DNA of 61,700 nt from Acidobacteriota bacterium (GTDB lineage Bacteria > Acidobacteriota > Blastocatellia > UBA7656). Shown here piece after piece: positions 57,672 through 61,592 of the stretch (positions are counted from its first letter, which is position 1; the number at the start of each line of letters is the position of its first letter). Position numbers and translations under genes: made by a program. A model generated the notes under the pieces. That model was not told the DNA's origin. It saw only the letters and a list, made by a program, of their open reading frames with translations, and did not search any database. Where the stretch lies: assembly GCA_016201275.1 (NCBI GenBank), contig JACQDB010000016.1, forward strand, positions 1 to 61,700, read 5' to 3'.

Positions 57672-58229
57672 TTATGAAAGGTCGGTGGGGGGCTGTGTGG
57701 CGCGCTCTTCGGCGGCTTCTTTTTCGAGCGCCTGCTGGAATAAGTCATCGCTGGCTTCGCTGAAAGCAAAGCAGGTGTTGCGAAGTTGCGGCACCCAGTT
57801 CAAAACCGCCAGGCGACGTTTGGCATCGCTTTTCATCAACTCGTCCCAGTTGAGATTGGCTTGTGCGGCTTTCTTTTGATTGGCGTAATAATTCATCTGA
57901 AACGCGCAGGTCGCCATATCGTTAATCAGCGTGTGCAGGTGCGTGCAGCTTGCCGCGCCGCCTAAAATCTCTCCGGCGATTTTGCGAAAGCCGCGACCAA
58001 TCTTGACGCCGACAATCTTGGATAAGACCGCGTAAGCGCCTTGGCAAAAACCCGGATAAGGCATTCGCGTGATGCCGCCTTCGGCAGCTGTGATGACATA
58101 CTGCGGAAAGCTGACGACCAGGCGGGCGGTCACCGAATGCACATTGTCGTTGAGCGCGCCTAGGATTTCAAAACTCGCTTCATCGAGCCATTCCATCTCA
58201 ACTTTTATCTCTCTGGCAAAGGTCGGCAT
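57672..58229 (-). CDS. DUF2889-like protein
   Basis: 185 residues from ATG 58229 (no close Shine-Dalgarno). The first strand pair MPTFAREIKVEMEWLDEASFEILGALND and the region GGAASCTHLHTLINDMATCAFQMNYY match the general layout of DUF2889 proteins, whose role is unknown. The Cys-Thr-His-Leu site may bind metal. It precedes the MaoC gene in one operon, hinting at acyl-CoA or aromatic-acid metabolism; that link is inference. Confidence 0.7.
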   Translation of the reverse strand: MPTFAREIKVEMEWLDEASFEILGALNDNVHSVTARLVVSFPQYVITAAEGGITRMPYPGFCQGAYAVLSKIVGVKIGRGFRKIAGEILGGAASCTHLHTLINDMATCAFQMNYYANQKKAAQANLNWDELMKSDAKRRLAVLNWVPQLRNTCFAFSEASDDLFQQALEKEAAEERATQPPTDLS

Positions 58230-58348
58230 GGCGTTTTTCTTAACTCCCGTGCATAAACTGATGAAGCGAAGCAGCCGCGCCATTTCACGCAATGACGTGA
58301 ACGCTTCGCTTCGGTGAATCGTTTGAAAATTGTTTTCAGCCCGTCATT

Positions 58349-60082: not shown

Positions 60083-60904
60083 ATGTCTCTAGGTATAGTT
60101 GTCAAAGGGTCGGAAGGGGTTGTACTCGCTGCTGATAGCAGAGTAACGCTGACCGCGCAAATGTCCCAACCAGATGGGACGGTGCTTCACTTGCCAGTGA
60201 ATTTTGATAATGCCACTAAGTTATTGACGTTTGCAAAGCCAAATAATTTTATAGGAGCAGTTACATACGGGGAAGCCGTTATTGGAACAAGTGCAAGTAA
60301 TCTTCGCACAGCGAAGAGTTTTATCCCCGAATTTGAGGTTGATTTACCAAAAGGTAAAAGACTAAATATAGAAGATTTTTCCTGTCGCCTGAGTAACTTT
60401 TTCTTAAAGCAATGGAACGATATTATGCCCACGACTCATCAAAGTCCTGGAATGGTTTTTGTGGTTAGCGGCTTTGACAATGATGCAGCGTATGGGTCGG
60501 TTTATGAGTTTAATATACCCAACACTCCGACCCCACAAGAGCGGCAGGCCAATGATTTCGGGGTAACGATGGGAGGTCAGCATGAACTGTCTTCCCGGAT
60601 GCTGAAAGGTTACGATGAGCAGCTTCTTGATATAGCACGGCAATCTCTAGGGCTAGACTTAACGCAACTTGATAGGCTACGACAGGCTTTGGAGATATTG
60701 CAGTTACAGATTCCTTTCCCGGTTCTTCCTCTACAGGATTGTATTGATTTGGCAGTTTTTTTAATCAAAACTACGAGTGCCGCCCAGAACTTGAGTATAG
60801 GAGTTAGAGGGGTTGGTGGCGCAGTTGATCTAGCTATAATTACTCAACGGGAAGGCTTGAAAATCATTCAGCAAAAAGAATTAGTTGCTGAGAATCATAA
60901 ATGA
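60083..60904 (+). CDS. Proteasome-like Ntn-hydrolase with N-terminal Ser
   Basis: 273 residues in AT-rich DNA, with AAAGG upstream. The N-terminus reads M-SLGIVVKGSEGVVLAADSRVT. After Met removal, Ser1 would be the nucleophile, and Asp17 of AADSR sits exactly where proteasome beta subunits carry Asp17. Lys of ATKLL may stand for the catalytic Lys33, shifted by an insertion of about 12 residues. GAVTYGEAVIGTS and GVTMGGQHELSSRM fit the fold. Proteasome beta subunits normally use Thr1; Ser1 and the lack of a propeptide are unusual. Bacterial relatives include HslV and Anbu, but neither is an obvious match. It is followed 7 bp later by an antitoxin-like gene. Confidence 0.72.
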   Translation: MSLGIVVKGSEGVVLAADSRVTLTAQMSQPDGTVLHLPVNFDNATKLLTFAKPNNFIGAVTYGEAVIGTSASNLRTAKSFIPEFEVDLPKGKRLNIEDFSCRLSNFFLKQWNDIMPTTHQSPGMVFVVSGFDNDAAYGSVYEFNIPNTPTPQERQANDFGVTMGGQHELSSRMLKGYDEQLLDIARQSLGLDLTQLDRLRQALEILQLQIPFPVLPLQDCIDLAVFLIKTTSAAQNLSIGVRGVGGAVDLAIITQREGLKIIQQKELVAENHK

Positions 60905-60911
60905 GGGACTT

Positions 60912-61127
60912 ATGACTAATACAATTACGATTACCGCGAAGACTATAGCTGAACAGTTGAATGCAACGCAGCTTTCCAATTTTAACTTTTCCAGTTCGGG
61001 CATTTTAACGCTAGTCATTCCCACTAGAGCAAATTCTGATTTGCGTCAGACAATGTTAGCCTCTGAAGCCGTACTGGCACGAGAGTGGAATCATCCTGAA
61101 GAGGATGAAGCATGGGCGGATTTGTAA
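60912..61127 (+). CDS. Putative antitoxin of a MazF-type toxin
   Basis: 71 residues from ATG 60912 with GAGGG upstream. The N-terminal beta segment (TNTITITAKTIAEQL) is followed by a C-terminal acidic helix LASEAVLAREWNHPEEDEAWADL; the SEA-LA-(E/D)W-PEEDEAW tail is typical of small antitoxins paired with PemK/MazF toxins and type II systems. It overlaps the toxin start by 16 bp, the classical arrangement. It lies 7 bp after the Ntn-hydrolase gene, so all three genes may share one transcript. Confidence 0.75.
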   Translation: MTNTITITAKTIAEQLNATQLSNFNFSSSGILTLVIPTRANSDLRQTMLASEAVLAREWNHPEEDEAWADL

Positions 61128-61447
61128 AAGGTACAGTGGTCATCTTTCCGTTTCCGTTTTCGGATTTAAGCGATACGAAGCGGCGACCTTGCTTGATCAT
61201 TTCACGCCTGGATGGTGATGACGCCATGCTTTGCATGATTACCTCACAAACCGTTTATGATAGCGATAGTGTGGAACTGACGAATGGTGATTTTGAAACA
61301 GGAAAAATGAATTATAGCCCTTCAAACATTCGTCCAAATCGTATCTTTACTGCCGATACAAATGAAATTTTATATATGATAGGAAAGTTAAAAGAAGAAA
61401 AAATGAAGGGAGTGACCGATAAACTTATTGAGATTTTTTCAAGGTAA
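61112..61447 (+). CDS. PemK/MazF-family mRNA interferase toxin
   Basis: 111 residues from ATG 61112 (GAGGA within the antitoxin end). MGGFVKGTVVIFPFPFSDLSDTKRRPCLIIS is the family's N-terminal strand pair with the KRRP motif; MLCMITSQ carries the Ser/Thr site and YSPSNIRPNRIFTAD the second. MazF toxins cut single-stranded mRNA at short sequences and are restrained by the upstream antitoxin. Slightly AT-rich, like its neighbours, and adjacent to an IS630-family end, suggesting transfer. Confidence 0.85.
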   Translation: MGGFVKGTVVIFPFPFSDLSDTKRRPCLIISRLDGDDAMLCMITSQTVYDSDSVELTNGDFETGKMNYSPSNIRPNRIFTADTNEILYMIGKLKEEKMKGVTDKLIEIFSR

Positions 61448-61592
61448 GAAAGAAGTAATACTGAGCGAAACCGTAACGATTACTGCAAAATCAACGGCGA
61501 ATGAATTGGATAAATGGAGAATTACGAATCACAATCCTTTTGAGACTAGAGCGCTGAACCTAGTAGTCAGTCATTTTGAATTTGAAGGATAG
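61428..61592 (+). pseudogene. Possible IS-interrupted small ORF resembling the antitoxin N-terminus
   Basis: In-frame text from TTG 61428 reads ...SETVTITAKSTANELDKWRITNHNPFET; its VTITAKSTANEL start parallels TITITAKTIAEQL of the antitoxin at 60912. After 61547 the sequence continues into the putative insertion-sequence end and stops at 61592. No good start codon is seen, so this may be a remnant of a related gene truncated by the element. Confidence 0.3.

Follow-up and report, generated by a model that had tools for sequence, protein, structure and literature searches.

A proteasome-like hydrolase gene followed by a small partner gene that can take the form of a chimeric antitoxin: a possible proteasome-type switch for toxin-antitoxin pairs

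What might a proteasome-like hydrolase do when its gene stands immediately before an antitoxin and a toxin gene? The question is raised by the window, the whole 61,700-nucleotide stretch of an Acidobacteriota contig that was analysed here, in which an ORF at 60083..60904 of the forward strand encodes a 273 aa protein identified as a proteasome-like Ntn hydrolase from the reading frame, an AlphaFold2 model and structural alignment. The first-pass annotation had stated that no hslU, ARC or Anbu partner lies nearby. By eye this holds for the ORFs of at least 80 aa between 54000 and 61700, but a small partner gene, which is here a chimeric antitoxin, and a PemK toxin gene had been missed, although they lie directly downstream of the hydrolase (60912-61447). 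The same region also encodes a DUF2889 protein (62.4 bits) on the reverse strand at 57672-58292.

The hydrolase begins M-S-L-G-I-V, and the Asp of its AADSR motif is residue 18, mature residue 17, as first described and as confirmed from the ORF translation. The predicted nucleophile, Ser as mature residue 1, is encoded at 60086..60088, Asp17 at 60134..60136 and the counterpart of the proteasomal Lys33 at 60218..60220, all on the forward strand. This Lys, equated by alignment, is residue 46 (mature 45) and so comes about 12 residues later than in the proteasome, which agrees with the displacement originally proposed. The residues were followed through a family set built from 164 profile hits, of which 139 were kept (8 were excluded for want of the C-terminal pattern, and 17 for want of the N-terminal pattern or for scores below 150 bits), leaving 87 non-redundant homologues after thinning at 85% identity. 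Asp17 is found in 87/87, in part through selection; since the homologues were chosen with an “xDS” pattern, its conservation is not an independent result, whereas the start codon and the residue that follows it are, given that the Asp alone fixes the register. A start codon stands 17 residues ahead of the Asp throughout (ATG in 75, TTG in 7 and GTG in 5), and the next residue is always T (75) or S (12), in keeping with the claim of a residue 1 nucleophile without propeptide. Lys46, Gly130, Gly246 and Lys265 (window numbering) are invariant; the last lies near the C-terminus, often within an R-K-x-Y-F stretch. The candidate for the oxyanion-hole Gly47, assigned by motif only, is window residue 63, which is Gly in 63 of the 87 and Asn in 19. 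Two Pseudomonas phage proteins among the 17 exclusions (L056 and L057) have, by eye, a TTG start, Thr1 and Asp17; the one from phage LESphi2 (L056:287-1309) is annotated as “proteasome subunit beta”, and at these loci a 67-aa ORF lies downstream and overlaps the hydrolase gene.

Sequence searches with the window protein gave a match to PF00227 of 12.7 bits over residues 7-27, below the cut-off of 22.4, no match in NCBIfam or PADLOC, and no solved structure. Of 33 family members, 9 match PF00227 (best 4.9e-5), 7 match the NCBIfam archaeal proteasome beta model (best 1.8e-5) and 31 match PHROG 5990 at E values of up to 0.1. An AlphaFold2 model computed from the window protein and 19 relatives (mean pLDDT 90.5, pTM 0.87) has the proteasome beta-subunit fold. 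The closest solved structures are those of Anbu (5nyw, Z 19.6 over 198 residues at 2.8 Å; 5lox, Z 19.1 over 201 residues at 2.9 Å), with yeast beta5 nearly tied (Z 18.6), and in most rows of the structural alignment model residue 2, the Ser, coincides with residue 1 of the chain. The confidence of the model, these Z scores and this register make the predicted alpha-beta-beta-alpha fold with Ser as residue 1 well supported. The model contains a beta hairpin (21-28/34-41) and helices at 77-86 and 96-114. Identity to Anbu is 13-16% in the structural alignment, and the model differs from it in having extra helices between H3 and H4 (168-175, 179-189, 193-206 and 217-236) and in lacking the long C-terminal helix H5, ending instead in a five-residue helix (268-272) where confidence falls. 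The earlier view that the protein is not plainly HslV or Anbu is upheld.

The suggestion of a new bacterial branch was correct as to the proteasome superfamily but overstated as to novelty, for Fuchs, Alva and Lupas (2021) catalogued 22 proteasome-like families with a Thr1 or Ser1 nucleophile, some of which carry a helical insertion where the window protein has one (PMC8665760). The window protein is probably a member or close relative of these published families, and its modelled insertions resemble those of the “PMI” group. The PMI-type and other proteasome-like homologues of that study share the fold, the Thr1/Ser1-Asp-Lys set, the lack of a propeptide, the extra H3-H4 helices and occurrence in phages; of the PMI insertion patterns, the window model would correspond to H3-H4, and the model of a long-clade relative (pLDDT 82.8; same core, Z 17.2 to both Anbu and beta5) to H3-H4 plus a further helical insertion after H1/H2 (PMC8665760). 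The comparison is with the published description rather than the cluster sequences, and it is the small partner and the toxin-antitoxin (TA) genes that are seen here in addition. That paper states that its authors saw no genomic context pointing to a specific function (PMC8665760), and in a literature search that left bioRxiv and most subscription journals outside its scope, no title or abstract among the matches listed linked these hydrolases with TA genes. What is new is the partner gene together with the coupling to TA pairs.

In a midpoint-rooted tree of the 87 homologues, the window clade (A2; 8/8 members, support 0.998) and a clade of short hydrolases of 214-245 aa (A4; L007, L032-L035 and L054; 6/6, support 0.98) are recovered alongside a long clade (A3; 59/59, support 0.66) and a medium group of 14 members (A5), which is not monophyletic since L020 is placed elsewhere in the tree. 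Ser1 is scattered over A2, L006, L007/L054 and L032, and therefore appears to be a recurrent substitution; as a single defining innovation it can be ruled out. A single-sequence search found homologues in 6 of 297 genomes of the phylum, including that of the window, and a 33-row profile search in 13 of 396, a draw that overlaps the 297. One of the homologues, L001, is on a genome contig of an Acidobacteriota MAG, and others are on IMG/VR contigs, in nine plasmid records (rhizobia and relatives, Ruegeria, Pantoea and Enterococcus) and in 23 phage records (Pseudomonas, Streptococcus, Stenotrophomonas, Porphyromonas and Providencia), one of the Streptococcus records being a satellite. The window protein itself matched nothing in the plasmid and phage collections at E values of 0.01 or 0.1, nor did L007 and L020 as queries against the plasmid collection; these distant relatives were reached with other family members as queries. 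Among 5426 E. coli genomes, 9 carry a 427-aa member, which lies in a prophage region. Assignment to a known defence family was rejected, PADLOC giving only weak matches in 13 long-clade members, one member each to four families.

Most of the hydrolase genes are followed by a small ORF, usually overlapping or no more than 25 nt away. In the window this is a 71 aa ORF at 60912..61127 (forward strand), which starts 7 nt past the hydrolase stop and aligns over its full length with its counterparts in L001 and L008 (42%). Under a rule of an ATG or GTG start at -30 to +45 and a length of 35-110 aa, applied to loci whose downstream sequence extends for 250 nt or more, a small ORF is present at 71 of 82 hydrolase loci, compared with 98 of 321 control genes from the same loci (ORFs of at least 200 aa chosen greedily, possibly including some false ORFs). 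By clade the counts are 8/8 in A2, 12/13 in A5, 50/55 in A3 and 1/6 in A4, the last becoming 2/6 under a looser rule. When a ribosome-binding-like motif is also required, 63 of the 82 hydrolase loci retain a small ORF as against 43 of the 321 controls, with 0/6 in A4. Differences between small ORFs in 14 unique pairs number 204, 168 and 345 at codon positions 1, 2 and 3, from which we conclude that they evolve as proteins under selection, and no motif common to the small ORFs of different clades was seen by eye. In the E. coli H3 prophage the 427-aa hydrolase (L158:6101-7560) has an antiterminator Q gene on one side and a methyltransferase/tRNA region on the other, and is followed by an unannotated 49-aa ORF with, by eye, a purine-rich ribosome site before it and a terminator-like hairpin after it.

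The window partner appears on sequence to be composed of two parts. Residues 32-71 (61005..61124) form a putative toxin-binding tail that recurs in all 11 stand-alone PemK-type antitoxins which the window antitoxin retrieved from 297 genomes (34-62% identity where they match). In 9 of these the match does not begin before residue 30, and in two it begins at residues 11 and 12; the alignments of L162 and L163 may, depending on settings, reach residues 5-12. A search with residues 1-31 (60912..61004) by themselves picks up the hydrolase-linked antitoxins of L001 (1e-4) and L008 (4e-8) but not one of the 11 stand-alone antitoxins, whose genomes gave no hydrolase match in either the single-sequence or the profile search. 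A PemK-like ORF follows 8 of the 11 by eye, and in three there is none under the rule used. The next gene in the window, at 61112..61447, overlaps the antitoxin by 16 nt and encodes a PemK/MazF-like toxin of 111 aa (PF02452, 42.4 bits, cut-off 23.1). It is 55% identical over 111 aa to the toxin of L164 and 31% identical over 108 aa to that of L160, so that in the PemK pair the toxins are alike over their full length while the antitoxins are alike over a 36-aa tail only. The window resembles PemK/MazF type II modules in its toxin family, in the tail of the antitoxin and in the order and overlap of the two genes, and differs from them in the antitoxin N-terminus and in the hydrolase gene that precedes the pair.

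A similar exchange is seen with a PIN toxin at L006. This toxin is 46% identical over 133 aa to one on a Nostocales plasmid, and the two antitoxins are alike over residues 64-95 only (32 aa), the stand-alone plasmid antitoxin beginning with DUF2281. The plasmid antitoxin was matched at E = 1 and is supported by the adjoining PIN gene; a second plasmid match (E = 6) has no like pair behind it, and the genome set gave one other weak match. For the antitoxins of L011 and L020 the search for a domain swap returned no usable matches. In the PemK case of the window and the PIN case of L006, the antitoxin is, as judged from these alignments, a chimera of the usual toxin-binding tail and another N-terminus, and, most simply read, its N-terminal module would be the link to the hydrolase. 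A possible second copy of the module without a tail lies at 61461..61592 (forward strand), resembling both the antitoxin N-terminus and an ATG-started ORF in the same place in L001; the window copy has no ATG, a CTG start is assumed, and it may be decayed.

The toxin in this slot is not always PemK. A toxin gene directly follows the small ORF in 6 of the 21 A2 and A5 loci for which downstream sequence exists: PemK (PF02452) in the window, L001 (47.7 bits), L008 (42.0 bits) and L011, which is the same as L005 (80.7 bits), PIN (PF01850, 31.1 bits) in L006 and Fic/Doc (PF02661, 49.4 bits) in L020. The Pfam scan covered the loci with evident toxins, and by eye no toxin is the next ORF in the 55 A3 loci, the 6 A4 loci and the other 15 of the 21. 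We count four separate toxin acquisitions (the window subclade, L011, L006 and L020); L011 and L006 share a five-member clade with three toxin-less members, and their toxins differ. The background of such genes is low, given 3 PemK and 16 PIN matches in the 6.84 Mb window genome, and with an assumed background of 1% the six toxin loci of 21 correspond to p = 4.8e-8 and the four acquisitions to p = 5.2e-5.

PemK/MazF toxins are RNases, and Met aminopeptidase takes off Met ahead of Ser or Thr. We propose that the hydrolase and a small protein that it recognises are encoded in one operon, and that in the window the module-bearing antitoxin is cleaved, freeing PemK, a reading to which we give close to even weight. 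Ser1 would be exposed by Met aminopeptidase, and the hydrolase would grip the antitoxin through its N-terminal module. On a trigger such as phage infection or loss of the locus, it would cleave or otherwise inactivate the antitoxin, and PemK would be released. In most of the relatives examined no toxin was recognised beside this small protein; in the window the small protein would have been joined to a type II antitoxin tail, with PemK next to it. Fold, catalytic residues, the order of the genes, the chimeric antitoxin and the recurrence with other toxins come from computation, whereas contact between the proteins, cleavage and its substrate, the direction of control, the trigger and the role are inferred. 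There is a parallel in the caspase-like protease (orthocaspase) MaOC1, which is likewise encoded before a type II TA pair, ParE/ParD-like, and cleaves the antitoxin (PMC7935541). MaOC1 differs in being a cysteine protease and in adjoining the TA pair in one Microcystis strain, and the available part of that report describes no swapped antitoxin domain (PMC7935541).

More tentatively, the locus may represent a widespread two-gene system of phages, satellites, plasmids and chromosomes, in which a hydrolase and a tiny partner have had toxins plugged in through antitoxin tails, making a proteasome-type switch for TA or phage-defence effectors; we regard this wider reading as possible, though somewhat less probable than the cleavage proposed for the window. 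An AIPR (abortive infection) gene, L003:2-1186, lies just upstream of a window-clade hydrolase. On four rhizobial plasmids (L036, L037, L041 and L042) long-form hydrolases lie a few kb from multiubiquitin and ThiF annotations, with a ClpP-like gene near three of the four, and Pfam identifies Multi_ubiq, Prok-E2_E, ThiF and Prok-JAB in the neighbourhood of L036. These neighbours, together with the prophage and satellite positions, would fit phage defence, short of proof.

The alternative that survives best, although we consider it unlikely, is that the small protein serves the hydrolase as assembly factor, inhibitor or propeptide in trans, that the antitoxin tail only makes the locus addictive, and that the hydrolase acts on other targets, such as phage or host proteins. 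It would suit a family in which the small ORF is frequent and the toxin rare, in which the hydrolase has no propeptide of its own, and whose genes occur in phages, prophages, a satellite and plasmids, and it would accommodate the tailless second copy of the module. What it leaves unexplained, unless addiction was selected, is the presence of the module on the antitoxins of different TA pairs.

We think it improbable that the hydrolase works as a protein ligase in the manner of connectase, attaching the small protein to others as a tag or acceptor. Connectase is itself a proteasome-like protein ligase (PMC8665760), and the multiubiquitin and ThiF genes near the four rhizobial relatives, with which the L036 Pfam matches agree, point the same way. 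Connectase is, however, marked by a two-helix S3-S4 insertion and the loss of H1-H2, and the window model shows neither, having no helical insertion at that site and retaining H1-H2; nor was a recognition peptide seen by eye in the small proteins.

Similarly doubtful is the idea that chance or hitch-hiking placed mobile TA pairs directly after a mobile hydrolase gene, with no functional link. Mobile DNA often carries TA pairs, and the window module was probably acquired, since its GC content is 42.3% as compared with 52.9% (s.d. 2.1) in 1300-base windows. Chance would not readily account for the tight spacing, for different toxins in the same slot of separate lineages (4 of 21 at the assumed 1%), or for antitoxins whose start differs in the hydrolase-linked copies. 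An HslV or a proteasome working with an ATPase seems unlikely: inspection by eye of the ORFs between 54000 and 61700 showed no ATPase, and contig C46 of the genome carries a further match to PF00227.

The proposal of antitoxin cleavage can be put to a simple growth assay, as the partner gene, sometimes an antitoxin with another N-terminus, provides a defined candidate substrate. For a poorly understood enzyme family that includes phage genes, gene context here gives a first functional clue. If the proposal is true, the list of proteases that target antitoxins, which includes Lon, Clp and an orthocaspase, would be extended to Ntn hydrolases, here with the gene lying within the TA operon itself.
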